Shown piece by piece: positions 5,181-61,004 of a stretch of DNA of 64,000 nucleotides. A model generated the notes under the pieces. The model was not told the DNA's origin. It searched no databases and saw only the letters and a program-made list of their open reading frames with translations. Where the stretch lies: positions 1 through 64,000 of the forward strand of contig NZ_JAQMUB010000097.1 of assembly GCF_028330965.1 (NCBI RefSeq), written 5' to 3'. This DNA comes from Oscillatoria sp. CS-180. GTDB taxonomy: Bacteria > Cyanobacteriota > Cyanobacteriia > Phormidesmidales > Phormidesmidaceae. How positions within the stretch are numbered: position 1 is the first letter of the stretch; every line of letters begins with the position of its first letter. Position numbers and translations under genes: made by a program.

Positions 5181-5240
5181 GGTTTGTTGCCTGCATTAAA
5201 TCTTGACTCTATTGTGAGACCAACTTTTCAGTTCTGTCCT

Positions 5241-5292
5241 GGAGTCCATACTCCGAGGAACAAAAAATTCCCCAACCTCAATCTGAGTTGAG
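5241..5292 (-). promoter_or_regulatory. Leader hairpins upstream of the 93-aa gene
   Basis: Reading on the minus strand, a CTCAA/TTGAG hairpin (5277-5292) is followed by a short A/T segment with a run of six T, and then a second small hairpin GGAGTATGGACTCC (5241-5254). This repeats the hairpin, T-run, mini-hairpin order seen before other genes of this region. It may also serve as the ssb terminator. Confidence 0.45.
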
Positions 5293-5310
5293 AGCAGGGA
5301 AAGTGGGAGT

Positions 5311-5682
5311 CTAAAACTCCGGTTCGCCGTCGTCGTCTTGGTCTTTAGCTTTCGGCGTCAGGTTTTCGACGCGCTGGGCTTTGACTACGAGCCGCGAGCG
5401 GTTGTCGCCAGTCGCCTGATCAGTCCAACGATTTTCTGCCAATGAGCCAGTGACAGCCACATGCGCTCCCTGGCGCAGATAGTCAGCACAGAACTCAGCG
5501 GTCTTACCCCAAGCTTCTACGGGAATGCGATGGGTTTGTTCTTGAGTTTCGCCGTTCTTCGTGAATTTTTCATTGACGTATACCGTCAGGCGAGCAGTGC
5601 AAGAACCGGACTCGAAGTACTTAACTTCAGGGTCGCCACCGAGATGACCAATAATCGTAGCGTTGTTGATAGACATAGCCAA
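5311..5682 (-). CDS. ssb: Single-stranded DNA-binding protein
   Basis: The 123-residue protein has the SSB OB-fold pattern: NNATIIGHLGGDPEVKYF at the N-terminus, then the V..W.KTAEF region and a GSL.ENRW strand. It ends in the acidic tail DDDGEPEF, which matches the usual SSB protein-interaction tip in acidity and final Phe. It is shorter than chromosomal SSB (about 180 residues) because the glycine-rich linker is reduced to a few residues, as in many plasmid SSBs. It coats single-stranded DNA during plasmid replication, transfer or repair. The upstream radC on the same strand is separated by a strong hairpin and 226 bases, so ssb probably has its own promoter. Confidence 0.95.
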   Translation of the reverse strand: MAMSINNATIIGHLGGDPEVKYFESGSCTARLTVYVNEKFTKNGETQEQTHRIPVEAWGKTAEFCADYLRQGAHVAVTGSLAENRWTDQATGDNRSRLVVKAQRVENLTPKAKDQDDDGEPEF

Positions 5683-5870
5683 TTTCCTTTTGGAATTTCC
5701 ATTGCTGCTAGGCGTTAGCCGTCTCCTTTGCCGATAACGGGACCGGCCCTACATGCAGTCACCAGCAAGGGGCGATCGCCTTTCTCAGAGCCCGCCAAAC
5801 CTATCGGGGAGATATCTCTCAGTTGTCCCATGCAATGATTCTTTACGCTTATCGGTCGATTAACGAAAGA

Positions 5871-5904
5871 ACCGCCACCCTTAAGATTGCTTGAGGGTGG
5901 CGGT
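5871..5904 (-). terminator. Strong hairpin between radC and ssb
   Basis: ACCGCCACCC (5871-5880) and GGGTGGCGGT (5895-5904) form a perfect GC-rich stem extended by an A-T pair, with a short loop. On the minus strand it lies just after the radC stop and is followed by TTCTTTC. It is a likely intrinsic terminator of radC or a leader hairpin for ssb. Confidence 0.6.
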
Positions 5905-5908
5905 TTGA

Positions 5909-6568
5909 TTAGTCCGTCCACAGACCAGTCGTTGCTCGCAGGGACATATAGTCTCCGTGCGAAACAACTAAATGATCCAGGATGGGGATGTCCATCACCT
6001 TGGCAGCGTCCAGAAGTTGCCTCGTGAGTTCGATGTCATCTTGCGAGGGTTCAGTGCTGCCGCTGGGATGGTTGTGCGCGATGACGCACCGTGTCCCCCC
6101 TGCCTGCATGACGACTGAAAAGATTTCCCTCGGATGAACGATCGTCTGAGTCGCCGTTCCCGACGAGAGAATGCGGCAACAGAGAAGGCGATGCTTGATA
6201 TCCAAACAAGCGATCGCGAATTTCTCGGTCGGTTCCCAGGCGATGCAGTTGAAAACGGCTACCGCTTTATCGGGAGTATCGAGGGCTTCTCCCAGCGGAG
6301 TCTCTTCGACGTAGAGCTGTCGGCCCAACTCTAGCGCAGCCTGGAGTTTCTCTAGCCGCTTCGGGGTCAACCGGGGTAGCGCTCCAGCTCGGATGGCAAC
6401 CCGCAAGCGATCGCGCAGGTTTTGCGGTGAGACTTGCTCATCCTCGTCGATTAGATTAGCGAGGATTTCTTGCCCCAAGGAATACCCCAGGACGGTATCG
6501 ATCAGGGCTGATAAAGTTGTGGTTTGGGCTGCTGGCCTGTAAGGGGCAGCGCAGTCTTTTACACGCAT
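5909..6568 (-). CDS. radC: RadC/JAB-domain protein
   Basis: The 219-residue protein has an N-terminal helix-hairpin-helix-like region and a C-terminal JAB/MPN metalloprotease-like domain. The domain's metal-binding motif HNHPSG is at residues 165-170, followed by an Asp at 177. The length matches RadC proteins (about 220 residues). In plasmids and phages, RadC-like proteins sit in DNA maintenance and anti-restriction blocks. The biochemical activity is unresolved, although the motif predicts a zinc-dependent hydrolase. The gene has its own hairpin leader (6570-6641) and lies between a small hypothetical gene and ssb. Confidence 0.9.
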   Translation of the reverse strand: MRVKDCAAPYRPAAQTTTLSALIDTVLGYSLGQEILANLIDEDEQVSPQNLRDRLRVAIRAGALPRLTPKRLEKLQAALELGRQLYVEETPLGEALDTPDKAVAVFNCIAWEPTEKFAIACLDIKHRLLCCRILSSGTATQTIVHPREIFSVVMQAGGTRCVIAHNHPSGSTEPSQDDIELTRQLLDAAKVMDIPILDHLVVSHGDYMSLRATTGLWTD

Positions 6569-6569
6569 G

Positions 6570-6641
6570 ACTTGTATGGATTGATAGGTCAGCCATGCAG
6601 CGCAACAGCGAAAAGAGAGCTGGCCTCCTTTCGGAAGCCAG
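6570..6641 (-). promoter_or_regulatory. Hairpin leader upstream of radC
   Basis: On the minus strand, CTGGCTTCC and GGAGGCCAG form a nine-pair stem around a GAAA tetraloop (6620-6641). A TCTCTTTT run follows, then CGCTGTTGCG (a CGC/GCG mini-hairpin) and CATGGCTGACC before the ATG. It is a member of the repeated leader family. Confidence 0.55.
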
Positions 6642-6658
6642 GGGGAAGGTGTGAAAAT

Positions 6659-6895
6659 CTAGAATTCGTTGGAGGCACGGGACTGTTCGGGGGTATCCAC
6701 ATCGCTCCAGCAAAAGTGTCTGTGAGGACTGTGGTGGATAAGGGCTCCATTAGCGTATGTAGGGAGTTCTCGGACGAAAGTGGCATCAGCCGCTCCCAGA
6801 TTCCGTGCAGCTTGAATGCCTGCCTCCTCAGCTTCGCACCGGGCCGCGTCATTAGCTTCAGTGCGTTCTTGTTCCAGGGCATAGTCGAAATACAT
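6659..6895 (-). CDS. Small hypothetical protein (78 aa)
   Basis: The frame starts with ATG behind a strong AGGAG site. It begins MYFDYALEQERTEANDAA, followed by a Glu/Ala-rich helix and a basic C-terminus with HHSPHRHFCW. The family is not recognised. The good ribosome binding site and the upstream inverted-repeat element at 6959-7003 support it over the overlapping frame at 6589-6882, which has no such start. Confidence 0.55.
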   Translation of the reverse strand: MYFDYALEQERTEANDAARCEAEEAGIQAARNLGAADATFVRELPTYANGALIHHSPHRHFCWSDVDTPEQSRASNEF

Positions 6896-6958
6896 GCTGA
6901 ACTCCTAATCGAATAGCAGTTCAGCGCCGCGAAAGCGACTGAGCGATCGCCTCAAAGT

Positions 6959-7003
6959 GTTAGGGAATAGAAGGGCTAATTGTCCCCTTGCCTGTTCCCT
7001 AAC
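6959..7003. repeat. GTTAGGG inverted-repeat element, copy 2
   Basis: The left arm GTTAGGGAATA begins at 6959 and the right arm TGTTCCCTAAC ends at 7003. With flanks, the arms extend to about 16 bases (AAAGTGTTAGGGAA on each side). It lies in the promoter region of the 78-residue gene on the minus strand. Copy 3 has the same total length (45 bp) and lies immediately before a plus-strand gene, which suggests an operator-like role. Confidence 0.6.
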
Positions 7004-7015
7004 ACTTTCTTCACG

Positions 7016-7471
7016 CTACCCTCTCGGACGATTCCATACAAGCCGCAGCAGGGGGCAACAACGGGCATCATCAACCGCATCCGGCGTGAGCCAAACTTGG
7101 TTATTTCTCATCACCAGATATTTGCAATAGATGATACGGTTCTGAGTACCGCGCTCCAGGAAGCGATCGCTAAGAAACGGGTTGTAGGTCAGGTCAATCG
7201 GCGCATAGATATCGAGGTCGCTCACTCCAATCAGTGTCCCCTGACCCCAGGCGTGAACCGTTCGCCGCTGCTGCGTAAGCACCCGCTGGCGGGTTGATTC
7301 GACCACATGGAATTTGACATCCCCTAGAACGCAGTCGAGCACATGCCCAACGACTTTCCAGCTTTTGGGCGATTTGGCTTGGATGGACATGCGCCCATTT
7401 TGCAAATTTCGATATATGCGGGTCTGCTTGCCAAGATGAGCAGACCAATCCAGTTCTCTGATGGCTGCCAT
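7016..7471 (-). CDS. Hypothetical protein (151 aa)
   Basis: I place the start at the ATG at 7471 (MAAIRELDWSAHLG), because AGGGGAGA stands seven bases upstream; the longer frame reaching 7726 would overlap the neighbouring gene. The protein is basic. It has recognisable beta-rich stretches such as KVVGHVLDCVLGDVKFHVVE, a TRQRVLTQQRRTVHAW segment and the C-terminus LLRLVWNRPRG. The family is not recognised; similar lengths and composition occur in plasmid-borne DNA-processing proteins. It is the next gene after the 168-residue gene on the same strand. Confidence 0.6.
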   Translation of the reverse strand: MAAIRELDWSAHLGKQTRIYRNLQNGRMSIQAKSPKSWKVVGHVLDCVLGDVKFHVVESTRQRVLTQQRRTVHAWGQGTLIGVSDLDIYAPIDLTYNPFLSDRFLERGTQNRIIYCKYLVMRNNQVWLTPDAVDDARCCPLLRLVWNRPRG

Positions 7472-7544
7472 CGACAAGTCTCCCCTAAAAATAACTAGAA
7501 ACCTTTGTGAGAAAGCTTTCTGGCACCAGGGCGAGAGCTTATGG

Positions 7545-8051
7545 TTAACAACCGGGAGTGCAATCGGGCAAAACCTGACGAAATCGAATGTACTCAGCCA
7601 ACGAGATTTCTCTCCAGCCCTGAGGATACGTCTGAGTGAAGTCATCGAAGACATAAGCGTCTTCGGGCTCCTTCCATTCGCCGCCGCTTGTGTACCATCC
7701 CCTGGCGATCTCATCAGCAACTGCATCTAGCTGCCCAGCCTTTCCATGAGCCAGGCAATAGCAAGCGTATTCTCGCTCCCCATTCTGTTCGTAAATTTCT
7801 CCAGCAGCGTAGAAATCGGCAATGGGGACATCCTCAACCGCCTCTAATTGCCCATTGTTGAAGGTCTCTATGGCCATAACCGCAATTAACGGATCGTCGG
7901 TCGGTTCAACTATCCTTGGCAGATCAACAAACCGAACCTTGGCCTGGGTGGGCTGCCCGCCGCCCATCACCATTGCAATTCGCCCATAGGCAAGACTGCT
8001 GATGTCGGTGACGCGAACCAGTTGCCCTGCTGTAAATTTAGCCTGAGCCAT
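7545..8051 (-). CDS. Hypothetical protein (168 aa)
   Basis: The N-terminal half (AQAKFTAGQLVRVTDISS, then GRIAMVMGGG and KVRFVD) looks like a small beta-barrel of the KOW/SH3 kind. The acidic C-terminal half ends with YPQGWREISLAEYIRFRQVL. There are no catalytic motifs. The start codon is eight bases after a large hairpin whose 3' arm contains the GAGGA ribosome binding site, so translation may be controlled by that hairpin. The function is unknown. Confidence 0.6.
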   Translation of the reverse strand: MAQAKFTAGQLVRVTDISSLAYGRIAMVMGGGQPTQAKVRFVDLPRIVEPTDDPLIAVMAIETFNNGQLEAVEDVPIADFYAAGEIYEQNGEREYACYCLAHGKAGQLDAVADEIARGWYTSGGEWKEPEDAYVFDDFTQTYPQGWREISLAEYIRFRQVLPDCTPGC

Positions 8052-8057
8052 GAAAAA

Positions 8058-8102
8058 TCCTCATTCAGCAGCACTCCCCGGCTAGAGCAGGCTGAATGAG
8101 GA
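8058..8102 (-). promoter_or_regulatory. Hairpin containing the ribosome binding site of the 168-aa gene
   Basis: TCCTCATTCAGC (8058-8069) and GCTGAATGAGGA (8091-8102) pair perfectly over 12 bases. On the minus strand the 3' arm ends in GAGGA followed by TTTTTC and the ATG. The hairpin therefore resembles a terminator and at the same time sequesters the ribosome binding site. Confidence 0.6.
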
Positions 8103-8107
8103 AATGT

Positions 8108-8263
8108 CTAGGTCATGAACAGCTCGAAGGTCATGATCTTAGTTGCGTCGGGATCAATGCCAGCCGCAATCTCACCAGCATCCACCATATCGGCTGCGTG
8201 AACCAGTACCGTCCCCTTGTAGGACATCACATCATTATGGGAAATCACAACGAAATACCTCAT
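8108..8263 (-). CDS. Small hypothetical protein (51 aa)
   Basis: The frame is MRYFVVISHNDVMSYKGTVL followed by VHAADMVDAGEIAAG and the end KIMTFELFMT. Its ATG overlaps the TGA of the upstream 100-residue gene (ATGA), the classic sign of translational coupling. The amino-acid composition looks like a folded alpha/beta mini-protein. It is too short to place in a family. It ends just before the hairpin at 8058-8102. Confidence 0.6.
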   Translation of the reverse strand: MRYFVVISHNDVMSYKGTVLVHAADMVDAGEIAAGIDPDATKIMTFELFMT

Positions 8264-8562
8264 TGCTCAGCCTCTAGGAGGAACTGATAAAGCCGGTCTG
8301 CCCCCTCAGCGCGAGTTAGCCCTTCATTGAAATGAGCGCTGTAGTCCCACTCCATTCGTCTTTCCTCATCGATGCCGCGATCGCCCATGCACTTCGAGAC
8401 GATCTCATCAACCTGGGCGCACCATTCGTCAAACTCGTCATCACTAGCTTGAGAAACGGCATTCTCCAGCACATTGAAAAATGGCTCTAGATGTAGCTCA
8501 CGCTTTTGGGCGCGAATTAAATCCCTAGCGGCTTCGACAATGCGGCTTTCCAGATCAGCCAT
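8260..8562 (-). CDS. Hypothetical protein (100 aa)
   Basis: I start the gene at the ATG at 8562 (MADLESRIVEAARDL), which has AGAGG upstream, rather than at the TTG further upstream that would lie inside the leader. The protein is acidic and mostly helical, with FFNVLENAVSQASDDEFDEW near the middle. There is no recognised domain. It is coupled to the following 51-residue gene by a four-base overlap. Its leader has a perfect 20-base palindrome followed by TTTTT. Confidence 0.6.
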   Translation of the reverse strand: MADLESRIVEAARDLIRAQKRELHLEPFFNVLENAVSQASDDEFDEWCAQVDEIVSKCMGDRGIDEERRMEWDYSAHFNEGLTRAEGADRLYQFLLEAEQ

Positions 8563-8631
8563 AACCTGACCTCTTCTTAAACGTCCCAACCGCAAAGCGA
8601 AAGCAAAAAGGGATGCCCCACGTGGGGCATC
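8563..8631 (-). promoter_or_regulatory. Hairpin leader upstream of the 100-aa gene
   Basis: GATGCCCCACGTGGGGCATC (8612-8631) is a perfect palindrome. On the minus strand it is followed by CCTTTTTG and then a CGCTTTGCG mini-hairpin, the same order as in the other leaders. It could also terminate transcripts of the ardC-like gene. Confidence 0.6.
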
Positions 8632-8643
8632 GGGAATAGGGCA

Positions 8644-9552
8644 TCAAGCCACTTCGAGATCGACAGCAGCATTCTCTAGCAGCAGGTTTGCGGCCTTCTG
8701 CGCGAGGGTCGTGGCCCTGAAGAACGCCTTATTGTCTGTGCCGATTAGCTCCATCCAGTCTTCGAGAAAGCTGGCATGGTGCTCCAGCGCTGGGGTGATA
8801 TCCAGTTCGTTGCAGATGAAAGAAGCACCCAGCTCTGCAACCATTTCCTCAAAGGCATACTCCGAGGTACCGAACTTATTGCGAATGTCCCGATTGAGGC
8901 GGGATTCGTGCCCTGTTCGGTGGATCAACTCGTGAATCGCTGTACTGTAGTACAGTTCAGCACTGGAGAAATCCGCGAAGCGAGGTAAGCGAATTTGATC
9001 GCGGCTGGGCGAGTAGCAGGCTTTGCTCCCACCATGCTGAATGTCGGCATCTTGGGAGAAGATGAGCCATTCTGCATCATCAATTCGGGGGTCAGGGTTC
9101 TCTGGGCCTCGATAGCGATCGATCACCTCAGAGATCGGATGAGAGGATTCACTATCGTCGAAGCAGTCCAGGTTAAAGACCTGGAGCCACTTGATCGTGG
9201 TGAAGAATTTTTCCTCTGTTTCCCCCGTTACCGGATCTTCCTCTTCCTTACGAACGGTACCGCCCCAGCGGAGCCAGGTGGCTTTGCTGCCTTTGCGGAG
9301 CTTCCAACCCTTTTCCTGGGCTTGTTTGAACCCAGCGAACAGAGGGTATTGATACCCATGTGCGAGTACATCAACCTGGGCCAACAGCGGGTTAAGTCCC
9401 TCATACTGATGCCCGGTCACTGCGTTGCAGGTGGGAACAGTGCTCCACGGTTTGCGCCAGGGTATGGTGCCTGATTGCATAAGAGCCAGCAGGTTGTCGG
9501 CAACGATTTGAAATTTGTCACAGGCTTTGGATTTAGCGGTTTGTTTACGCAT
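8644..9552 (-). CDS. ArdC-like antirestriction / zincin-type peptidase
   Basis: The N-terminal domain (about residues 10-130) has the ArdC N-terminal pattern: a GTIPWRKPW segment, then G..YEGLN and AHGYQYPLFAGFKQ, and KGWKLRKGSKATWLRW. The C-terminal domain has the metallopeptidase motif HELIH at 207-211, followed by RTGH and a downstream EEMVAELGA helix. The length of 302 residues matches the family. ArdC proteins enter recipient cells with plasmid DNA and protect it from restriction, and the C-terminal domain is a zincin-like protease. The gene lies between the helicase-methyltransferase and small hypotheticals and has its own leader. I see no missing key residue. Confidence 0.85.
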   Translation of the reverse strand: MRKQTAKSKACDKFQIVADNLLALMQSGTIPWRKPWSTVPTCNAVTGHQYEGLNPLLAQVDVLAHGYQYPLFAGFKQAQEKGWKLRKGSKATWLRWGGTVRKEEEDPVTGETEEKFFTTIKWLQVFNLDCFDDSESSHPISEVIDRYRGPENPDPRIDDAEWLIFSQDADIQHGGSKACYSPSRDQIRLPRFADFSSAELYYSTAIHELIHRTGHESRLNRDIRNKFGTSEYAFEEMVAELGASFICNELDITPALEHHASFLEDWMELIGTDNKAFFRATTLAQKAANLLLENAAVDLEVA

Positions 9553-9629
9553 GGCTTTTAATTGATAGAAGTTTCAGCCATGCGCGGCGATAGCCCAAAA
9601 GAAAGCGGCCACCCCGAGGGATGACTGCC
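9553..9629 (-). promoter_or_regulatory. Hairpin leader with conserved box upstream of the ardC-like gene
   Basis: On the minus strand there is an imperfect hairpin at 9605-9629 (GGCAGTCATCCC with GGGTGGCCGC), then TTTCTTTT and the box GGGCTATCGCCGCGCA followed by TGGCTGA. The box is nearly identical to those in front of the 1443-residue gene and the RavA-like gene. Confidence 0.6.
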
Positions 9630-9649
9630 ATGTAACGATTGCAGGTGAA

Positions 9650-12600
9650 TTAACTCAGTAGCTTGACCACTGCCTCCAGAACTTCCGGGCCGCGAGTCTC
9701 GTCGGTTGGGACAAAGACCCGTCGCCGCCAGGAGATGATCTCGGTGAAGCAGCCTGCGGCCTTGAGCTGTTCGCACAGCCCATCCGAGACGGTGCCGGTG
9801 ATTTCCAGTCGCCGCTCGTCCATGAGCAACGAGGATTTCAGCGACAACCCGCCCGGCAGAGGTAGGTGTTGCTTCTGATTCAGCACCGTGTCGAACATCT
9901 CGGAAGCCGTGAGTTCGACCTGATGAACGCCCAGAGACTTGGCGATCGCCTGCATCTTGTGCAACTCCACCACCCGACCGAGGAGGCGTTCGCCATCATC
10001 GGTTTGCAAGCGGTAGACCCGCATGTTTTCCCGGTCTAGCGAGTTCCAGATCGGCAGCAGTAAGCCACAGATCAGGAAGATCCGATCGCTGGTGAATTCA
10101 GGAATTCGGCTCACTTCGTCCTGCCAGCAGCGCTGCCATTCAGATGCAGAAGCATCTTCCCAGGTGCTGTTTTCTAGTTCGGCCACAGTCAGCTTGGTAC
10201 GGATGATGGGACGCACCAGCGCCGCGCGAGGGATGACCGCCCCCGAATCACTCATCGCCGATGAGGTTGGGATGACGACTGCCGCCCGTCCAGACTTCTG
10301 GTTGACCATCAAGCGGCCTTCCCATCTCTTCTGCAGCTCCAGGGCTTCTTGAACGCTGGTATACTCCGTCCGCCAGCTTCGCTCGACCTCCACGCAGAAG
10401 GTTTCGCTGCCGGAGACATGAGTGTAGACCACGTTGCGATCCACCACCGCCAGCTTGTCCGCCTGGATGGTTTCAACGCCACTCTCGAAGGTGCCAGTAG
10501 CGATCGCCGCTTCCACCCGTGTTTCGACCAGCATCTCGAAGACTTCAAAGAGGTCATTCTGGAGCTGAATTGGCAAGGCCAGGATGCGGTTCAGGAACTG
10601 CGCCATACTGGGCAAGTCCTCCCGCAATCCCCCTTCTTTGGAGGTCAGGGTTAGCCCTGTAGCCCTTTCAAACTGTGCCAGGGAGCAACAGTCTACTTGC
10701 TCGGCATACAGCAGTCGGAACAGTTCCCGTAGTGCGGATTGGGCATAGAGAGATTCCAGGTTGTCTTTGGAGTCAAAGAGTCCCTGTCCTCCGGTCTGCC
10801 GCTGCCCTCGGGTGAGTGCCCCTAGTGCATCGAGTCGCCTGGCAATTGTCGAGATGAATCGCCGCTCGCCGCGTACGTCTGTCACCACAGGCCGAAAGAT
10901 CGGCGCTGTAGCTTGGTTGGTACGGTGAGACCGACCGAGCCCTTGGATCGCGCCATCGGCCTGCCATCCCGCTTCAAGCAGGTAATGCACCCGCCTGCGC
11001 GTATTCTGACAGCCCAAGTCGGCATGGTAAGAGCGTCCGGTATTCCCGGCCCCGCTGAAGATCAGGACATCCTTCTCTCCATCCATGAAGGATTGGGTTT
11101 CTGAGAGATTCGCCGATGCCGGACGCTTCGCCACATACTGTCGCCCATCTGGATCACTGAGAATCCGCACGGAACGCCCGGTGACTTCTGCGACCCGATC
11201 ATGACCAAAATGGTGCAGAATTTGCTCTAATGCACCGGATAGGGCTGGCAATGACGCCACTTTGCCAACTAGGGCGTCTCGCTGGTCTTCCGCTTCACGG
11301 CAGATCACGGGATTGCCGTCAGCGTCTTGCACCAAACTGGAACGCACCTGACCATCTTCGGTTGTGTATGCCTCATAGAGATACACAGGGAACGCATTGA
11401 ACAAGTAGGTCATGATGTTCTCTCGTGGGGTCACATCAATGTTGAGGTCATCCCACTCCTCGGTGGGCACCTCTGATAGACGGCGTTTGATCATCTCCTC
11501 ATTGGTCGAAACCAATTGGATCACTGGGGCCAACCCCTCTGCTAGATCTGCCTCCATTGCCTGAAGCAGGCTGGGGCATTTCATTGAGGTCAGCAGGTGG
11601 TTGAAGAACCGCTGCTTGTTCGACTCGAAGGCCGACCGCGCCGCGCCTTTAGCCGAGCGGTTCAAGTTTGCGCCGCTGACCGCCAGCGCCTCTTCCAGGT
11701 GGGTGTGAATCACCTGGAACACTTCGGAATAGGTGTCGTAGATCTTGATTTGATCAGGCGTCAGGGGAACGGCCAGGGCATCATACTCCACGCCCTCGAA
11801 ACTGATGTTTCGAGCGAAGTACAGGCCCAACGCCTTCAGGTCGCGACACACCACTTCCATTGCGGCCACCCCACCGGACTCAATGGCCGAGATAAAGTCA
11901 GAGCGGTTAGGAAACGGAAAGTCGCCAGTTTGCCACAGGCCCAGGCGGGAAGCGTAAGCGAGGTTGGACACCTTAGAGGCACCTGTCGCTGACACGTAGA
12001 CCACCCGCGCATCGGGCAGTGCATTTTGTAGACGCAGACCTGTGAGCCCCTGTTGGGAGGCTTCCTGGATGCCGCGACTCCCTTCTTGGGCGATCGCGTT
12101 CCCCATCGAGTGCGCCTCATCAAAGGCAATGACACCCTCAAAGTCAGCACCCAGCCAGTCAGTGATTTGCTCTAACCGAGACTTCTTGCCGCCCCGACTG
12201 CCACCCCGCAGGGTTGCATAGGTCGTGAACAAGATGCCTTCGCTAATGGGGATGTCAGCACCCAGCTTGAACTTCGAGAGTGAGACGACCTTGGACTCGT
12301 CACCACCAAGGGCTTTCCAATCCCGCCGCGCATCTTCAATCAGCTTGTCGGACTTAGACAACCATAGGGCTTTCGTGCGCCCCTGGAGCCAGTTGTCCAG
12401 AACGATACCAGCCACCTGACGGCCTTTGCCGGAACCCGTGCCGTCACCGAGGAACCAACCGCACCGAAATTGCACGGCATCCGGGTCGCCACTGCTGGCA
12501 ACCTCGATCTTGTCCAGCGTTTCGTCAACTTTGTAACAGCCGCCAAGAAGCTGGCTGTGGGCTTCGCCTGCATAGACGACGCTCTCTAGCTGTGCTTCTG

Positions 12601-13981: not shown

Positions 13982-14056
13982 AATGATTCGCCTATGAAGG
14001 GTCGCCCCTGCGCGGCGATAGCCAAAAAAGAAGCAGTCGTCTTCACGGACGACTGC
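13982..14056 (-). promoter_or_regulatory. Hairpin leader with conserved box upstream of the helicase-methyltransferase
   Basis: GCAGTCGTC and GACGACTGC (14033-14056) form a nine-pair stem. On the minus strand it is followed by TTCTTTTTTGGC and the box GGCTATCGCCGCGCA, then GGGGCGACC, an AGGCGAA ribosome binding site and ATG. Confidence 0.65.
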
Positions 14057-14093
14057 TCAGAAAGGCATAGCTGAGATGGGAATCGTGTGCCGT

Positions 14094-14270
14094 TTAACAG
14101 CACTGGACTGCGCGTAGTTGACGAGGCGCAAGCTTATGTCTGCGGCCCTCAACTCTAACCAAGACGAAACCCTTGGGAAGTCCCGTAAAACCTACGACCT
14201 CGCCAATTTGATGATCCTGGGTCTGAACCAAATCATGAATATCCATAGTGCTAGCTGAATTGCTTGTCAT
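14094..14270 (-). CDS. Small hypothetical protein (58 aa)
   Basis: The frame begins MTSNSASTMDIHDLVQTQDH and continues with a compact beta-type sequence, GEVVGFTGLPKGFVLVRVEG, ending in basic residues. GGAAGG lies directly before the ATG; a second ATG seven codons later (MDIHDL) is an alternative start. It is found immediately downstream of the decayed pseudogene on the same strand. The longer frame to 14594 reads through one of that pseudogene's shifted frames and is not a real extension. The function is unknown. Confidence 0.45.
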   Translation of the reverse strand: MTSNSASTMDIHDLVQTQDHQIGEVVGFTGLPKGFVLVRVEGRRHKLAPRQLRAVQCC

Positions 14271-14302
14271 CCCTTCCAGGCGTAAGCGAAAGGGCCAAAA
14301 TT

Positions 14303-14819
14303 TTACTCGATGAATTGATGGGCTTCGGCGATCGCGGACTTGGAGAGGGCGAATCCGTGCTCGTCTAGATGGCTCTGGATTGCCTCGATACTTATAATCT
14401 ATGTCGATATCCTTTTTTGACCGTTTCCGACTCTGATCGATATGCAACCACGGGACGCAAGCCCCAATTCCGGCAAGGGCGGATTCTTCGAGAAACTGAT
14501 GCAAAACGGCGATATCCGCGCCCCATTGCCAAACCGGGACCAGGGGTAGACCGCAGTTTTTGCAGCGGTTCCAGTTGGCAAGGGTTTCGTCCATGTCGCC
14601 AAGTTCATCAGGTGCGACGACAAACTCGAACGATCGCGATCGACATCAATTGTTGTTCCGTTTTTGAGGCGCGATAGGCCCCAGAGTCGAGAGCGGCTTG
14701 GGCATTCATGCCCTTGGCGTTGTGCAAATCGGTGGGGTCAACTAGGATGCGTGTCACCCCAGCCTTGATGAGTATGTCGCGCTCCTCGGTGGAGCCGATG
14801 CCCGAAAGACATACTTCAT
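14303..14819 (-). pseudogene. Frameshifted remnant, possibly a TGT-like TIM-barrel protein
   Basis: Several frames must be joined to read one protein. The pieces are CLSGIGSTEERDILIKAGV through LDSGAYRA, then LKNGTTIDVDRDR, then EFVVAPDELGDMDETLANW through LPLVPVWQWGADI and GIGACVPWLH, and finally SHLDEHGFALSKSAIAEAH ending FIE and a stop. About four frame changes, one just after the ATG, make it non-functional unless the assembly is in error. LDSGAYR, the APDELGD segment and the late GIG.CVP motif recall the barrel strands of tRNA-guanine transglycosylase-like proteins, but the match is by eye and weak. It has its own hairpin leader, so it was once an ordinary gene of this block. Confidence 0.55.
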
Positions 14820-14894
14820 GTTGCTTCTGCCTGAAGGAAGGTCGCTCAGATAGCCCAGCCGCGCAAAAAAAGACGCTTCCCAGATGAGAAGCGT
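14820..14894 (-). promoter_or_regulatory. Hairpin leader upstream of the pseudogene
   Basis: ACGCTTC and GAAGCGT (14873-14894) form a stem. On the minus strand it is followed by a run of seven T, GCGCGGCTGGGCTATCTGAG and GCGACC, which resembles the conserved box in a rearranged order. The leader has survived although the gene has decayed. Confidence 0.55.
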
Positions 14895-14915
14895 TGGTCA
14901 GGGCGTCGGTGACAA

Positions 14916-15698: not shown

Positions 15699-15750
15699 TG
15701 GAATGTCCTCATGCGAAAAATCGGGAGTGTGGCCCTGCTGCACTCCCGAT
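15699..15750 (-). promoter_or_regulatory. Hairpin leader upstream of the WGR gene
   Basis: ATCGGGAGTG (15720-15729) and CACTCCCGAT (15741-15750) pair perfectly over ten bases. On the minus strand TTTTCGC, then GAGGAC and the GTG start follow. No mini-hairpin box is evident here, so it is the shortest version of the leader. Confidence 0.6.
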
Positions 15751-15762
15751 TAGTGGTCGAAT

Positions 15763-17346: not shown

Positions 17347-17356
17347 GGTTTGCTCC

Positions 17357-18511: not shown

Positions 18512-18580
18512 AATCTTTCGCCTTTATAGGTCAGCCCTGCACGGCGATAGCCCAAAAAACAGCCACCCAGACGGATGGCT
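18512..18580 (-). promoter_or_regulatory. Hairpin leader with conserved box upstream of the ATPase gene
   Basis: AGCCACCCAG and the complementary ACGGATGGCT form a hairpin at 18561-18580. On the minus strand it is followed by GTTTTTTGGGC and the box GGGCTATCGCCGTGCA, then GGGCTGACC and a purine-rich ribosome binding site. The hairpin could double as the terminator of the upstream gene. Confidence 0.65.
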
Positions 18581-18610
18581 GAATAGAAGCAAAACTATTG
18601 ATAATGAGGC

Positions 18611-19282
18611 TTATGCCGCTGCTGCGATGCCTTCGACGACTGTTGCCAGTTCTTCAGGTGTGAGACTTTCCACCTTGCGGCGTCGGACAGCAAGAAGCTG
18701 TTTCTTGACGATGGATTGACGACAATCAGCATCAGTGATGCCTGCTCTGTCGAGTGCGACTGAGATAGCGGCTCTCGCGGTGGTCGGTTCATCTTCGTCA
18801 GAGGCTTTGATCGTAGAAGGAATTGCAGCAGATTCCGGGGTCTGAATAGGTTCAGTATCGTCTTCAACCACAACGGTTTCGACTTCTTCGGCTGCTTCCT
18901 CTTCCGGAGTGTATGCCTCACGAATGGCGGCTAGAGCCTCCTCTAGTTCCTTTTGAGAAAGGTCGGCAGCTTTGCGGGCACCAAGATACTGGGTTGCCAC
19001 GGACCTGCGAGCAGCCAGTTCGACAACCCCAAGTTCATTCAGCAAGTCGCTGATGTGCTGGGCGTTGGATTTGGGCGATGTGGCATCGTGACAGGGAGCT
19101 GCGACAAGGGTTTTCCCTTTCATCAGTGAGGCAACTGGTTGAATACCGAGTTCCTGGCCTCGCAAGATTATGGCAACAGCCTGCTCCTCATTTTCCAATT
19201 CCTTGAATAAACCACTAGCAAAGAGGATTTTGCCAATTTGAATAGTCTCTGCAAGGAGAGTATGGGTAGTGTGGGTGTTCAT
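18611..19282 (-). CDS. Hypothetical recombination-associated protein (223 aa)
   Basis: The N-terminal 60 residues (IGKILFASGLFKELEN, then QAVAIILRGQELGIQPVASL) match the start of the phage and plasmid protein group found beside single-strand annealing recombinases. In that group SG.F, a KI.AGQELG.. segment and P..A. are conserved. The rest differs: an acidic Glu/Thr-rich middle and a C-terminal helical part with KKQLLAVRRRKVESLTPEEL. The next gene upstream is the zinc-ribbon protein that such genes usually accompany. The function is inferred to be homologous DNA annealing or its control, with low certainty. Confidence 0.55.
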   Translation of the reverse strand: MNTHTTHTLLAETIQIGKILFASGLFKELENEEQAVAIILRGQELGIQPVASLMKGKTLVAAPCHDATSPKSNAQHISDLLNELGVVELAARRSVATQYLGARKAADLSQKELEEALAAIREAYTPEEEAAEEVETVVVEDDTEPIQTPESAAIPSTIKASDEDEPTTARAAISVALDRAGITDADCRQSIVKKQLLAVRRRKVESLTPEELATVVEGIAAAA

Positions 19283-19370
19283 AGTGTCCTTAAATATGCG
19301 AAAGAGATTTCATGCCCGCTGCGCCTAAGCGCACAGAAAACGGCATCCCTGAAAATCAGAGATGCCGTTT
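19283..19370 (-). promoter_or_regulatory. Hairpin leader upstream of the 223-aa gene
   Basis: AACGGCATC and GATGCCGTT (around 19339-19369) form a strong stem with a GATTTTC-type loop. On the minus strand TTTTCTG and a TGCGC/GCGCA mini-hairpin (19324-19338) follow, and then AAGGACA ahead of the ATG. The mini-hairpin has different bases but the same position as in the other leaders. Confidence 0.6.
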
Positions 19371-19385
19371 CATGCTTTGATGTCG

Positions 19386-20477
19386 TCAGTCAATGCCGAC
19401 TCCGTTAACAGTCGTGGCTTGACGCCGGACAGGGACTTGCTCGGATAGGGCTTCACTACAGCGCAGGGCAAAGCGATGAATCAGGTTGTTGTCAGTGATT
19501 CTTGGCTGTTCGGCTCTAATCTTATTAATCAGTTGTCGGGCAATCTGAACTGAGACATGGTGCCGGGTTCGCCCCCACTCAATTAGGAGTTGCTCAATCA
19601 AGCTCTGCATCTCCTCATCGTTGAGCTGATCGGCGGTCTTGCCCGCCATCTGTTTGACCTGTGCCAGCGTGTGTCCAGTCCTCTCAATGACCAGTCGGAT
19701 GCGATCTCGATTGAGCTGCCCCTGATCCATCTCTTCGCCCTCGATGGGCATCCGCTCTAGACGAGCCGCGCTACTGACGTCTTCCAAAGGCTCGAAGTCT
19801 GCGTCAAGGGTCTGAATTTCGCTATGTTCGACCGCAAAGAAATTGCTGGCATTTGCGGCCAGTATCACCGATCCGACGAAGGACCGCTTTTGGGCCATTT
19901 TGTCGATGGTGTTGACCTGATCGAAGACACGATCGTTGGGCACTTTGCCCTGTTGCTGCGAGATGATTTGAGGGTCATCGCTCTGGAACTTGGCGTTGCA
20001 TCCACCAGACTTTGTGTGGCAGTACCAACCTTTATCGCCAGTTTGCTTATCGGGGTAGTTACTGCGCTTAATGGCTGCCGCTCCACATTTTGGGCAAGTC
20101 CGCCCAGATGTACGGTAGCGATACTTCTCCTCCCATGAGTTACAACTGGCAACACACTCTGCCACCACATCGCCTAAACGGTCTCTGAGAGTGCATTTGT
20201 ATTCAAAGTTAAAAAAGGGCTCTTTGAATTGTTGCCCAGTCCAGTCTTTAATCGCCTCAAGTCGCTCAAACGACTCACGTAACCCAAACAGGGTGGCAAT
20301 CTTTTCTGCCCCTGGCTTAAACAGGACGGGTTTGTCACCGCAGCCTTTAATTGTTCCGTAATCAAGCCCTTCCCGCAGAGAGCGCTGGATAAACAGGACA
20401 AGGGTGTTGTAATGGTCAACCGCCGTATTGATTTGCTCAATACTGGTCTGAGGCAGGCGAACAATTGCATTAGTCAT
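19386..20477 (-). CDS. Zinc-ribbon protein of phage/plasmid recombination type (363 aa)
   Basis: The N-terminal half has YNTLVLFIQRSLREGLDYG followed by KPVLFKPGAEKIATLFGL, then a basic core. A zinc ribbon is formed by CPKC, then a CHTKSGGC pair about 30 residues later (residues 128-159). KMAQKRSFVGSVILA follows, which is characteristic of a broad phage and mobile-element family usually annotated as hypothetical and often located beside recombination genes. The C-terminal third is helical. The most likely role is DNA annealing or recombination; no nuclease or ATPase motif is visible. It is transcribed in the same direction as the 223-residue gene, with a hairpin between them. Confidence 0.6.
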   Translation of the reverse strand: MTNAIVRLPQTSIEQINTAVDHYNTLVLFIQRSLREGLDYGTIKGCGDKPVLFKPGAEKIATLFGLRESFERLEAIKDWTGQQFKEPFFNFEYKCTLRDRLGDVVAECVASCNSWEEKYRYRTSGRTCPKCGAAAIKRSNYPDKQTGDKGWYCHTKSGGCNAKFQSDDPQIISQQQGKVPNDRVFDQVNTIDKMAQKRSFVGSVILAANASNFFAVEHSEIQTLDADFEPLEDVSSAARLERMPIEGEEMDQGQLNRDRIRLVIERTGHTLAQVKQMAGKTADQLNDEEMQSLIEQLLIEWGRTRHHVSVQIARQLINKIRAEQPRITDNNLIHRFALRCSEALSEQVPVRRQATTVNGVGID

Positions 20478-20556
20478 AGCTATGAACTCTTATGCGAGAC
20501 ATCAGAGCAGCGTGGCGACAGCCAAAAATATCTGCACCTCGCGAAGAGATGCAGAT
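20478..20556 (-). promoter_or_regulatory. Hairpin leader with conserved box upstream of the zinc-ribbon gene
   Basis: ATCTGCACCTC and AGAGATGCAGAT (20530-20556) form a hairpin with a GCGA-type loop. On the minus strand it is followed by ATTTTTGGC and the box variant TGGCTGTCGCCACGC, then CTCTGATG and the start region. Confidence 0.6.
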
Positions 20557-20732
20557 CAGAGATGGTGATGTTGTTAGGAGCGTTGCTGTTGAGAGTGAGA
20601 GCACTGCACCCTGGTGGGTGACCGTCAGCACTTCGGGCGGCACAAGGCACTTTTACCTGATGGGGAGATCTGAGCAGCGGCAGAGAGCATCCCTGGCCCT
20701 TCGGTCTAGAGCCTCAGAGCGATAGCGCCACT
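20557..20732. other. Gene-free spacer with an orphan leader-box copy
   Basis: No supported gene lies here; the plus-strand frame at 20492-20725 has no family resemblance. On the minus strand, immediately after the stop of the following small gene, 20705-20727 carries GCTATCGC and TGAGGCTCTAGA. This is nearly identical to the leader segment at 23789-23810. A downstream 21-codon frame exists but is too short to support. Confidence 0.4.
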
Positions 20733-20939
20733 TCAGGAAAGTAGGCTCTTTACGATCGCGGCGGCGTGTTCAACTTCGAGTCTCGCCGTTCTTAGGCGCA
20801 TCAGGCTCCGCCGAAGCCGACACTGAAAGTTGGTCTGCGGATCGGTCAACATCCGTTGGGCCGTGGGGGACAGCTCCAGCGCTGCTGCGATCGCTTCCAG
20901 TTTCTCATGCAGCGATCGCAGCTCGACTCGACTCGGCAT
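20733..20939 (-). CDS. Small helical hypothetical protein (68 aa)
   Basis: I start at the ATG at 20939 (MPSRVELRSLHEKLEAIAAA), because the alternative ATG at 20984 lies in the hairpin at 20984-21014. The protein is basic and almost entirely helical: an LHEKLEAIAAALELS segment, FQCRLRRSLMRLRTARLE and VEHAAAIVKSLLS. A small DNA- or protein-binding helical bundle is plausible. The family is not recognised. It is the next gene after the DGQHR-motif protein on the same strand. Confidence 0.45.
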   Translation of the reverse strand: MPSRVELRSLHEKLEAIAAALELSPTAQRMLTDPQTNFQCRLRRSLMRLRTARLEVEHAAAIVKSLLS

Positions 20940-20983
20940 AATCTGCTGAGTTGATTGTTTTGGAGGGGTTTCGTATAAAAACA

Positions 20984-21014
20984 TAGCCGTTCCGAATTAA
21001 GGTCGAAACGGCTA
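20984..21014 (-). terminator. Hairpin after the DGQHR gene, leader of the 68-aa gene
   Basis: TAGCCGTT and AACGGCTA (20984-21014) pair, and on the minus strand TGTTTTTATA follows. It sits 12 bases after the DGQHR gene stop. As elsewhere in this block, the hairpin serves both as a possible terminator and as a leader of the next gene. Confidence 0.55.
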
Positions 21015-21026
21015 CGCGAACGCGGA

Positions 21027-22157
21027 TTAATCCAGCTCGATATTCATCTGTTGGGCAAAGTAGGCAGCCAGGGCAGCCGCCGTCCGCGTGTTCTTGGTGA
21101 TGCGACCACCGAAGCGACACACCCTCTCCAGGTCTGGATTATAAGCACTCCAATTCACCTGATTGAGACGTTTCAGCCAGGTTAGGCCACATCCTTTTCG
21201 ATGCTGATGATTCCCTAGAACGCTCAGGGCATTCAGAGAAATCGCATGGAAACTCATGGTCTCTGCTCTTAAGGTTTCGGCGTTAGTATTCGCATCAACG
21301 GTTTGCCAATCGGGGTGATGCTTACTGACGGCCTTCCAGAAGGACACAGCCAACTTGGATAAGTCCCCTTCCAGCCCCTTGCAAAGCAACTTCGAGCACT
21401 CTTTCAAGGTATTCATCGTAAAGAGGTCATCGCCTTTGGCATTCGTCGCCTCTAGCGCTGTCCGCCCCTCAAAGATGGGAACCCCCATCAAGACGGCTCG
21501 GGCAATCTCACAGTAGGGATCTCCACTATCAAAGAGGGCGATGATACTCTGTGATGGTTTCGCGGCATGTTTATTGATGTCCAAGAACATCTGTTTACGC
21601 CGCCGTCCGTCCGCATCAGGGATCAGCATCACCCCGAGCGTCTCCTGCTGTACGAGGGGCTCCCCCCTTAAATGGGCTTCAATAGCCCCCCTTATGCGAT
21701 GCTGTCCATCTGCCAGCCAAAGCGTGGCTGAAGCTGGCAGTGACAGAGTACCAAACTCCGGGGTAAAGGCTTCTAACGATGAGATCCCAACGTCATCCTC
21801 AAACTCCACTCCACAAAACTCAAAGGTTTCATTCTGTGAAATATCTACGGTCACAGTTACCGGGGGAAGGACATAGCTCTCATGAGGCAAGCACCCTTTC
21901 AAGATGTATTGAGCTACCTTCTTGACTCTCGATGGATTGAGCGTTCTCTGGGCCAGAGTAAGGGGCCGCTTTTTGCCGTCTCGCTCACGCTCAAAGAACG
22001 GGCGAAAGTATTCGGCAAGCTCAGACATACGAATGTTAGTCATCCAGTAAAAGTTGCCGGACTGCCACCCTTGAACAACGGGCAGCTCAATTCGCTTTTC
22101 GCCGCTTAGCTGAACGAGCTTTGCGAGAGATTCGGAAACCGGGATTGCGATCGTCAT
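21027..22157 (-). CDS. DGQHR-motif (DndB-like) protein
   Basis: The 376-residue protein carries LWLADGQHRIRGAIEAHL, with DGQHR at residues 150-154, as in DndB and related regulators of DNA modification operons. Other family features are RTLNPSRVKKVAQYIL near residue 71 and a DINKHA segment near residue 212. DndB represses and modulates phosphorothioation operons; the wider DGQHR group includes ParB-like proteins of other modification systems. AGGAG before the ATG fixes the start. The upstream PP-loop gene overlaps it by 71 bases, so the two are co-expressed. No DndA, DndD or DndE is present nearby, so this is not a standard Dnd system. Confidence 0.8.
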   Translation of the reverse strand: MTIAIPVSESLAKLVQLSGEKRIELPVVQGWQSGNFYWMTNIRMSELAEYFRPFFERERDGKKRPLTLAQRTLNPSRVKKVAQYILKGCLPHESYVLPPVTVTVDISQNETFEFCGVEFEDDVGISSLEAFTPEFGTLSLPASATLWLADGQHRIRGAIEAHLRGEPLVQQETLGVMLIPDADGRRRKQMFLDINKHAAKPSQSIIALFDSGDPYCEIARAVLMGVPIFEGRTALEATNAKGDDLFTMNTLKECSKLLCKGLEGDLSKLAVSFWKAVSKHHPDWQTVDANTNAETLRAETMSFHAISLNALSVLGNHQHRKGCGLTWLKRLNQVNWSAYNPDLERVCRFGGRITKNTRTAAALAAYFAQQMNIELD

Positions 22158-23766
22158 GATTTTCTCCTAAAACGTTGGGAACTTGGCCGGTGATCATTGC
22201 CCACTTCAGGTCATAGGCTTCGTCTAAAATGCGCTGCTTTTCGTATGGCGCGGCTGGCAGTACGACAAACTGTTCTTCAACGAAAGGCGGCTTGGGCTTT
22301 TCCACCTTCTTCCTGGGTTTGCCATTTCGCCCGACACTGACTGTGATAATTGGCTCGGGTCGGGGAATTGTCCAAAGCCGCAGGGATAACTTCTCGTGAA
22401 CCGGACGTTTGCCGTAGCGATCGCTTAGCTCACGTAGATATTCCTGGCTGCTCTGCTGCGTCCCTTGATGAAGAATCCGAGTTTGGCGGTAGGGAGCCTT
22501 GGCTTTGCCGTCAAAGATTCTTCGCACGCAATAGACAGCCCAGGTTTTACCCTCCAGAAGATACTGAGCCTGACGAGCTGCTAGCTCACCGCCATATTCG
22601 CGCTGGATGCCGATTTCGTCAGTCAGTCGCTCGGCCACCCAGGCGGGCCAATCGTTACCGTCAAGCAGGTGGTAATAGTGCTCGACAGCCTTACCGTTAT
22701 TGCTCTCCAACAGCGCCTCAATAACCGTCTTACGTCCGTAGAGAGGTTGATTCACGTTCAAGCCCAGTGAAATATGCTCGATGAATGCAGCTTCACCGCC
22801 ATACTCCGGCTCGTTTAGCCAATCCTCACGGAGGTCAGAATGGGTGTTATTCCCCTTCAGGCGTTTCTTGCCATTGCACTCGGAGAATGGACAGGAATTG
22901 ACGCAGTAGGACTTTTTGCCTCGGGTGATGCGACCTGAAGTTTGGCGCACCAGGAAAGCATCTAGATAATCTTCACACCACTTTCGCCCCAACCCCATCT
23001 CGATCAGCGGAAATCGAAACACCTGTTGGCGTTCAGGGCTTTCCTTGATCCGACTGGCTTCATTGGCATTGAAAGCGATGGAATAGTCGTAAGGCTGATC
23101 ACCAAAGTTCTTTTCCTTGAGGCGACTCACCTCGTCCGCATTAAACCCCACCTCGTAAATGGGTGTCTGCACTGTGACGCTTTGATCCTTTGCTGCCCGC
23201 TTTGCCTCATCCGCGTTAAACCCGATGAACCGCTCACGGGGACTATCCCCAAACAGATAGGAAGCGATCTCGTCAATCACCCACCCCTTGAATTTCAATG
23301 TACAGAGCCGCTTTGAACCATTTCGCTGCGGCACAGTACCCGACATGATCAGCTCCAGTAGCAAGCTGTAGGAGCCCCGCTGAAAGTATTCGACGGGTTG
23401 CCGCGTGGAGGACAGCACCGTGATGCCGTGTCGTTCAAACTCACCGTTGCGGTGGGCTTGGATAAACCAGATATTGTGCTCACGACATAGCGGGAAGATA
23501 GTTTCCTCCATGATCCGCTTTGTCTCGACAGACTCCCCACCCACGACGGCGTGGATGACGACCAGATTACAGAGTGGGAATCCTCGCTCTGCATCCGACA
23601 TTTCGCAGTAGCGAACCAGCAGAGCATTGCTATCAACGCCCGCGCCACTGGAAAGCACATGAGGCTTGAATCGAGGTGCTAGCTCTTGCGCCATTTGGAA
23701 GAAAGCGTTTTCTTCCGCTTCATGGAGAAAGTGCAGTGGTGGCAGTTTCTCCCTTGAGATAACCAT
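22087..23766 (-). CDS. PP-loop ATPase, PAPS-reductase/DndC-like (559 aa)
   Basis: SSGAGVDS at 39-46 is the PP-loop. An LVVIHAVVG strand and ETKRIMEETIFPLCREH follow, then CTLKFKG and the CVNSCPFSEC cysteine cluster at about 288-297. These match the PAPS-reductase-like group carried by phages and mobile elements. The motif GFNADEA..R, present once in relatives, occurs three times here, at 181-190, 206-215 and 230-239. The C-terminal 200 residues are basic and have no known domain. PP-loop enzymes adenylate a substrate before thiolation or reduction. Together with the DndB-like partner this suggests a nucleic-acid or nucleotide modification role, which is inference. Confidence 0.8.
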   Translation of the reverse strand: MVISREKLPPLHFLHEAEENAFFQMAQELAPRFKPHVLSSGAGVDSNALLVRYCEMSDAERGFPLCNLVVIHAVVGGESVETKRIMEETIFPLCREHNIWFIQAHRNGEFERHGITVLSSTRQPVEYFQRGSYSLLLELIMSGTVPQRNGSKRLCTLKFKGWVIDEIASYLFGDSPRERFIGFNADEAKRAAKDQSVTVQTPIYEVGFNADEVSRLKEKNFGDQPYDYSIAFNANEASRIKESPERQQVFRFPLIEMGLGRKWCEDYLDAFLVRQTSGRITRGKKSYCVNSCPFSECNGKKRLKGNNTHSDLREDWLNEPEYGGEAAFIEHISLGLNVNQPLYGRKTVIEALLESNNGKAVEHYYHLLDGNDWPAWVAERLTDEIGIQREYGGELAARQAQYLLEGKTWAVYCVRRIFDGKAKAPYRQTRILHQGTQQSSQEYLRELSDRYGKRPVHEKLSLRLWTIPRPEPIITVSVGRNGKPRKKVEKPKPPFVEEQFVVLPAAPYEKQRILDEAYDLKWAMITGQVPNVLGENHDDRNPGFRISRKARSAKRRKAN

Positions 23767-23937
23767 AAGTTTTCTCCAGAAAAATTTTCTAGAGCCTCAA
23801 GGCGACAGCACAGCAGTACTGGATCTGGGACGCAAGCACAGCATCTACCTCAACTCCTCGCACAGTTCCTAGGTCGAGAGTGGGCGGAGTAATGCGAATA
23901 AGCGTGGTGCATCTCTAGAAAAAATCCTAGAGATGCA
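23767..23937 (-). promoter_or_regulatory. Leader region upstream of the PP-loop gene
   Basis: GCATCTCTAG and CTAGAGATGC (23909-23937) form a ten-pair hairpin. Nearer the gene, the box variant TGCTGTCGCC with TGAGGCTCTAGA (23789-23810) precedes an AATTTTTC run and a GGAGAAAA ribosome binding site. The IS at 23944 inserted just upstream of the distal hairpin, so the original promoter may be separated from the gene. Confidence 0.5.
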
Positions 23938-23943
23938 ATGCGA

Positions 23944-26422: not shown

Positions 26423-26423
26423 G

Positions 26424-50168: not shown

Positions 50169-50205
50169 AGTAAGACCTCATGGCGACGAGCGATGGTAAA
50201 TGGCG

Positions 50206-50920: not shown

Positions 50921-50990
50921 GGTCGGGGGCTGGAAAAGCTGACTGTGCTTAAAATCTAACGTTTACACCTCGTTTGCGAAGACCAGGACG

Positions 50991-52706: not shown

Positions 52707-52755
52707 GATAAGGAATGGAAATTTCGATAATTGTATAAGTAGATGAAGTTACGTT

Positions 52756-54189: not shown

Positions 54190-54223
54190 AAGTTTTAGAT
54201 GCCGTATATCATTTACTGCGGCA

Positions 54224-54514: not shown

Positions 54515-54560
54515 GTTTTTGGTTTGCTTAGGTTTGTTGATCAGCTCGAAGTCTCAAATT

Positions 54561-54804: not shown

Positions 54805-54818
54805 CAAATTAAACTGTT

Positions 54819-55391: not shown

Positions 55392-55394
55392 AAC

Positions 55395-60990: not shown

Positions 60991-61004
60991 CGTTTTGTGC
61001 CCCC

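Follow-up and report, generated by a model that had tools for sequence, protein, structure and literature searches.

The yeast plasmids pGKL1/2 encode their own RNA polymerase, have a conserved element 20-40 bases upstream of every start codon, and terminate their messages at stem-loops (PMC6211774). A comparable arrangement may exist on a cyanobacterial plasmid. The window analysed in this paper is bases 1-64000 of the 86,250-base contig NZ_JAQMUB010000097.1 (G000:C40) from the 6.5 Mb genome of Oscillatoria sp. CS-180, and its minus strand contains a gene block, from 23766 down to 632, in which a short element, termed the box, is repeated before about nine of the genes. We give slightly less than an even chance to the reading that the boxes are hairpin-type promoters, read by a YonO-like RNA polymerase of the plasmid's own, encoded at 632-4876. 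The block would resemble pGKL1/2 in being extrachromosomal, in having its own two-barrel-superfamily polymerase, and in placing a short element before gene starts and stem-loop terminators after genes. It differs from them because pGKL1/2 are eukaryotic and cytoplasmic, with a poxvirus-related two-subunit enzyme and an element (UCS, ATNTGA) without a hairpin, whereas the arrangement described here covers just a portion of a bacterial plasmid and its promoter function is putative.

The virion RNA polymerase of phage N4 belongs to the T7-like family and works on the single-stranded DNA (ssDNA) of the injected genome, at promoters with a stem of 5-7 base pairs (bp) and a loop of 3 bases. This promoter resembles the box in that it is a small hairpin with flanking sequence (PMC4496689), but the polymerase family is unlike the two-barrel YonO type. 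YonO of phage SPbeta shares with the 632-4876 protein the single-chain two-barrel family, the motif order and the DbDGD loop, but is a prophage enzyme of ~900 amino acid residues (aa), for which PMC5467207 gives no promoter sequence or repeated box, the YonO promoter being still to be determined. The same paper places YonO-like proteins in cyanobacteria, and these are possibly the family of the 632-4876 protein. EGeRS1 and EGeRS2 of pLS20-family plasmids are likewise repeated upstream of ardC and other establishment operons, and EGeRS1, like the box leaders, has no strong sigmaA promoter; however, EGeRS1 is 420-750 bp long and heavily structured, and no plasmid polymerase is reported (PMC8708921). 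STAXI (PMC2864571) and the Frpo/ssi ssDNA promoters (PMC11541004) are structured as well, and likewise lie close to ssb and anti-restriction genes in mobile elements, but STAXI consists of tandem pseudoknots, and the long hairpin of Frpo contains -35/-10. A Frpo-type ssDNA promoter is rejected here, because the box stems are 3-5 bp, the terminator stems are 7-11 bp and -35/-10 are absent.

Repeated box in the leaders of the block

The block encodes, from 23766, a DndB-domain protein, the products of genes 19386-20477 and 18611-19282 (the latter with a weak RecT-like match), MoxR, a vWA protein, a WGR protein and a strawberry-notch (SBNO-type) helicase, followed by ArdC, small gene products, RadC, SSB, a 93-aa protein and a 1,414-aa protein. 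Unsupervised motif discovery in 20 leaders of this block yields one 24-base motif, GCTnTCGCCnnGCAGGnCTGAAAT, with a log-likelihood ratio (LLR) of 125.4, as compared with 66.7-73.5 in six shuffles. Its good sites end 16-24 bases 5' of the ATG. The box is the mini-hairpin GCTNNCGC followed by GCANGGCTGACC. The word GGCTATCGCCGCGCA occurs 10 times with up to 3 mismatches (2.3 expected), and all 6 occurrences of GCTATCGC are on the coding strand. About nine genes, designated by their start positions, carry the box: ssb (5676), radC (6568), 6894, 8562, ardC (9552), 13981, 18511, 19282 (a variant with a longer stem) and 20477. The sequence-only reading had proposed a shared box in a list of leaders with hairpins. 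The repeated element is real, but the box is absent from several of these leaders (5180, 15698 and 20939); it is also absent from the leader of 22157, and is doubtful before 23766 because the ortholog has no box. That list does not include the boxes of ssb (5720) and 6894 (6937). In the plasmid of Leptolyngbya sp. SIOISBB (L048), the ssb leader at 14782-14857 (minus strand) contains the box core twice in tandem, GGCTGACGCCTCGCAG and GGCTAACGCCTCGCAG.

It might be argued that the leaders contain only ordinary terminators and chance or HIP1-like words, without common regulation. GGCTATCGCC is one base off the HIP1-type word GGCGATCGCC, HIP1 is abundant (56 per strand), and terminator-like sites over the whole stretch are not in excess (26 against 19.6 +/- 5.0 by chance). 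For the box, this explanation is refuted by the LLR of 125 against 73.5, the strand bias, the constant distance to the ATG and the conservation in three genera. It holds for the large hairpins alone, and as an account of the leaders it is highly improbable.

The sequence-only reading also noticed little room for an ordinary promoter in these leaders, in agreement with a sigma70 scan, which finds none in the box leaders: the scores are 1.2-5.1 and are matched or exceeded by 42-99% of shuffles. In the whole block, promoter-like sites number 2, as compared with 10.0 expected. The leader of the polymerase operon has no box in any plasmid checked. In the window it contains instead TTGGTC-N17-TTTAAT, of which the score, 7.7, is reached by 5.5% of shuffles, suggesting that the host polymerase would start this operon.

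Covariation of the mini-hairpin

In the genus of the window, the core GC....GC never varies, and its outer flanking pair shifts from G-C to A-T or C-G. The stems of Pseudanabaena plasmids are ACGC-TATC-GCGT, ACGC-TAGC-GCGT, GGC-TAGC-GCC and GAGC-TAGC-GCTC, the first two being followed by AAGTCCRTGA. Those of g13, another genus within the family of the window, are TGC-GTTC-GCA, TTGC-TAGC-GCAA, GAGC-TAAC-GCTC and TTGC-TTC-GCAA, followed by CTGACG, CTGAAG or ATGACC. Over the three genera, the outer pair is Watson-Crick in 34 of 44 sites, as compared with 12.0 expected when partners are shuffled, with a small bias in this count because the pairing core is preferred where one leader offers two. When one site is taken per gene family and clade, the numbers are 16 of 22 and 6.0. 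All four Watson-Crick pairs are represented at the outer stem positions. Thus, the compensatory changes suspected by the sequence-only reading, which proposed related plasmids as the place to seek covariation, are found there. This result indicates that the hairpin is real as a single-stranded nucleic acid, either RNA or melted or extruded DNA.

This covariation is not predicted for a fixed DNA-binding site, and it argues against the possibility that the box is a double-stranded operator at which a plasmid activator or repressor acts over weak host promoters, as EGeRS2/Reg of p576. The size of the motif suits a binding site, and an establishment-type regulon with one upstream motif has a precedent (PMC8708921). 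However, the box leaders are without -10/-35 elements, and no conserved small regulator was identified in a search that was not exhaustive. We consider this explanation quite unlikely.

Large hairpins as terminators of the upstream genes

The hairpins with T-runs reported by the sequence-only reading are present, by computation on the minus strand before 5180, 6568, 8562, 9552, 13981, 14819, 18511, 20477 and 20939, and by eye and folding before 8051, 15698 and 19282. Long GC-rich terminator-like sites are nearly all on the minus strand, in gene gaps. That reading regarded hairpin and box as one attenuation or antitermination leader, but the terminator tracks the upstream gene and the box the downstream gene. 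The upstream neighbour of ardC is the helicase gene with one hairpin in the window, and another gene with another hairpin (CTGCTTGTC...GGCAAGCAG) in the sister plasmids of Halomicronema sp. CCY15110 (G004; box-bearing contig NZ_JACSWC010000425) and Leptolyngbya sp. SIOISBB (G005; JAAHII010000002), which belong to the same genus as the window. The ardC box is unchanged in all three. In G005, radC follows ardC, and the hairpin before radC is the ardC 3' hairpin of the window (GATGCCCCAC..GGGGCATC). In addition, T-runs are separated from the boxes by anything from 0 to about 30 bases, and no terminator adjoins the box of ssb. Because gene order differs among orthologs in this way, the hairpin with T-run is best assigned to the upstream unit, as its 3' end, and the box to the downstream unit, as its 5' end, with the unit boundary between them. 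Judged from sequence, the large hairpin is probably an ordinary terminator of the upstream gene, and a plasmid-encoded RNA polymerase is a more economical explanation than attenuation or antitermination.

The box may nevertheless act as RNA. A serious rival to a promoter is a leader element transcribed by read-through, in which the mini-hairpin and the CTGAC segment control translation or bind a plasmid regulator, antitermination, possibly of an RNA-only type, being one version. The stem covariation fits RNA, and the box-ATG distance is nearly constant. Gene 8051 begins a few bases after a T-run, and therefore needs read-through or another start. In 12 of 44 leaders (4.8 expected, P 0.003), the 3' half of the box can form a helix of at least 7 bp with the start codon, for example GCATGGCT/AGCCATGC in ardC (9552) and CATAGCT/AGCTATG in radC of G005. 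The helices of ardC, radC (6568) and their orthologs show some compensatory changes and could hide the start codon. This second helix is a suggestive lead, but it is largely limited to ardC, radC and a few other genes, and is not seen in moxR, sbno or ssb. Moreover, the box often touches the T-run of a terminator and could then be transcribed only by read-through, but conservation ties the terminators to the upstream gene as units. Antitermination by a NusG paralog (RfaH/LoaP) is rejected, since the genome has a single NusG, and a put/nut-type RNA finds no Rfam match. Taken together, the leader element is a possible but rather tentative explanation. No Rfam family reaches its gathering score in the window, the block or the relatives. 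The weak matches to Cyano-2, RNAI and mir-451 near 5768-5976 trace to the radC terminator. A tmRNA-like fragment (RF00023, 32.9 bits, below gathering score, E 1e-9) is located upstream of the polymerase operon in L048, at 10712-10790 (minus strand).

The 632-4876 protein as a candidate RNA polymerase

DbDGD is the metal-binding loop of two-barrel RNA polymerases. The motifs AYxxL(xxS), ILIIDD ((I/L)xxDD), DGxG, KGT (KG), SxxKG (SxxK), RSP (RxP) and D(F/Y)DGD are arranged in the family of the 632-4876 protein in the same order as in YonO, and G-x-(I/V)-x-N is likewise common to this family and phage YonO homologs. The distance from AYxxL to DbDxD in this comparison is 350-405 against 342-384 residues. 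The local score of hhalign against the YonO family is 37.6, as compared with a mean of 15.5 (sd 2.6, maximum 24.2) for 100 column-shuffled controls and 15.4 for the reversed one. The E-value is 8e-4, and the hhalign probability is only 24%, because the alignments are shallow. The catalytic loop is DFDGD or DYDGD in homologs from Pseudanabaena, Leptolyngbya (L. boryana), Nostoc and Anabaena plasmids. These results show, at the level of sequence profiles, that the 632-4876 protein is a remote YonO homolog, and they make it a candidate RNA polymerase. A short domain from its C-terminal part (aa ~1178-1314) occurs separately, with up to 66% identity, on many plasmids of Nostoc and other cyanobacteria.

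Co-occurrence of box and polymerase

Among 59 genomes, box matches with E < 0.003 are found only in those of the window (G000), G004 and G005, and never in three others of the same genus (G001-G003). The polymerase is likewise present in the former three and absent from the latter three. Thus, in this genus, the box occurs in 3 of 3 genomes with the polymerase and in 0 of 3 without it. The polymerase is 51-64% identical in g13 and about 33% in Pseudanabaena plasmids (ABRG53b, L111 and relatives), which have a syntenic block. In the polymerase plasmids of both genera, the box precedes ardC, radC, ssb and other genes, with different stems. In the Pseudanabaena plasmid alone, unsupervised discovery missed the box (LLR 84 against 80), and its members were found by eye and with a covariance model. 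As for phage-type promoters, a common motif lies at a fixed distance before many genes and is confined to genomes that encode the polymerase, although the converse fails for Nostoc-type plasmids. The apparent link rests on three plasmid lineages and does not extend to the latter.

Among 84,980 genomes, the exact box pattern is limited to the sister plasmids, a single isolated match in a Leptolyngbyaceae metagenome-assembled genome and eight matches in unrelated bacteria, about as many as expected by chance. IMG/VR contains neither a match to this pattern nor a relative of the polymerase. Wider searches with gene 19386-20477 and moxR yield no further box plasmids.

Proposed organization of transcription

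According to the promoter reading, the block would consist of short transcription units, each made of a box, one or more genes and an intrinsic terminator, and each directly following the last. The box, a mini-hairpin GC-NNNC-GC with a covarying outer pair followed by GCANGGCTGACC, with its end about 18 bases from the ATG, would be the promoter, and the YonO-like protein its reader. The polymerase operon, which has no box and, here and in one relative, has a sigma70-like sequence, would be started by the host polymerase; transcription of ssb, radC, ardC, the SBNO helicase gene, moxR/vWA and others would then fall to the plasmid polymerase. We infer the activity of the polymerase, its recognition of the box and the location of the transcription starts.

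Several observations weigh against this proposal. Motif discovery in polymerase-bearing plasmids of Nostoc, Anabaena and L. boryana finds no such repeated motif, so that either the promoter differs there or the protein has another role. Block genes 15698, 17346, 20939 and 22157 have no box. Only the window and L111 have a clear sigma70-like promoter before the polymerase operon; in several relatives it is weak or absent. The 3' half of the ardC and radC boxes can pair with the start codon, for which the box would have to be transcribed. The catalytic loop of the window is DFDRD, not DFDGD; the two sister plasmids share this loop (three independent genomes), with the aspartates kept and the glycine replaced. 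A YonO homolog of phage BUCT082 has DFDYD, and therefore a residue other than glycine is tolerated somewhere. A single-sequence AlphaFold2 model of the 632-4876 protein has a low pLDDT of 37, and a sequence search of solved structures (PDB) with this protein gives no match.

Plasmid context and other features

The positions of the features are summarized in Table 1. The contig carries parA and parB at 25586-27485. No relaxase is found in its annotated parts; related Pseudanabaena plasmids are typed MOBP. With ssb, ardC and radC, the gene content is reminiscent of the establishment genes or leading regions of conjugative plasmids (PMC11541004, PMC8708921). A DDE-type transposase gene (23933-25381, plus strand) lies between the par genes and the block, near the doubtful leader at 23766. 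The stand-alone DndB-domain protein overlaps a 559-aa protein with a weak PAPS-reductase-like match (21027-23766, minus strand), and other dnd genes are not found in the window. A Class 1 DISARM defence system occupies 44048-63863 (minus strand).

Table 1. Coordinates of the block features and of the DISARM genes in the window
Feature	Position	Strand	Basis or remark
1,414-aa protein, candidate RNA polymerase remotely homologous to the single-chain two-barrel YonO type; catalytic motif ITDFDRDANGYF	632..4876	-	Motif order, profile comparison
93-aa protein gene, first of polymerase operon	4899..5180	-	Conserved next to polymerase; leader without box
Sigma70-like promoter TTGGTC-N17-TTTAAT before polymerase operon	5195..5223	-	Score 7.7
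Box before ssb, GGCTAACGCCTAGCAGCAATGGAAA	5696..5720	-	Motif discovery; no adjoining terminator
Box before radC, CGCTGTTGCGCTGCATGGCTGACCT	6586..6610	-	Motif discovery
Predicted terminator of upstream gene 6589-6894	6620..6641	-	Just before radC box
Box before gene 6589-6894, CGCTTTCGCGGCGCTGAACTGCTAT	6913..6937	-	Motif discovery
Leader hairpin of gene 7545-8051, CTCATTCAGC...GCTGAATGAG, box-like GCTCTAGCC inside	8060..8100	-	Clear box kept here in g13 relatives
Box before gene 8260-8562, TGCTTTCGCTTTGCGGTTGGGACGT	8581..8605	-	Motif discovery; ortholog box in G004
Predicted terminator of ardC	8612..8631	-	Hairpin also 3' of ardC in G005, there with radC next
Box before ardC, GGCTATCGCCGCGCATGGCTGAAAC	9571..9595	-	Motif discovery, word count
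Predicted terminator of SBNO-type helicase gene	9608..9625	-	Upstream of ardC
Box before strawberry-notch helicase gene, GGCTATCGCCGCGCAGGGGCGACCC	13999..14023	-	Motif discovery
Predicted terminator upstream of helicase box	14031..14058	-	
Predicted terminator of WGR-domain gene	14873..14894	-	At most a degenerate box after it
Box before moxR, GGCTATCGCCGTGCAGGGCTGACCT	18528..18552	-	Motif discovery
Predicted terminator of gene 18611-19282	18560..18581	-	
Variant box before gene 18611-19282, TGCGCTTAGGCGCA (5-bp stem) then GCGGGCATGAAAT	19307..19333	-	Conserved in G004
Box before gene 19386-20477, GGCTGTCGCCACGCTGCTCTGATGT	20499..20523	-	Motif discovery
Terminator-like hairpin and T-run	20530..20556	-	Just upstream of box 20499..20523
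Doubtful box before 23766, TGCTGTCGCCTTGAGGCTCTAGAAA	23786..23810	-	18 bits; not seen before G004 ortholog
DrmC	44048-44851	-	DISARM
DrmB	44848-46761	-	DISARM
DrmA	46761-50168	-	DISARM
GmrSD-type protein (PADLOC Orf5/HEC-06)	50991-52706		Inside DISARM system
DrmMI	55395-59624	-	DISARM
DrmD	61005-63863	-	DISARM

Implications

Neither the role of cyanobacterial YonO-like polymerases nor the promoter of any YonO-type enzyme is given in PMC5467207. One plasmid now offers a candidate polymerase and about nine candidate promoters, with covariation showing which bases are paired, so that the question is testable in vitro with one protein and short DNA. An unlikely but wider possibility is autonomous plasmid transcription, in which the YonO-like polymerase acts on the hairpin promoters, possibly on ssDNA entering by conjugation, so that no host sigma factor would be needed to turn on the anti-restriction, SSB and repair genes as the plasmid enters. 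If the boxes are read by the plasmid polymerase, the block would be the bacterial equivalent of pGKL transcription in yeast, and may provide an orthogonal expression tool for cyanobacteria.

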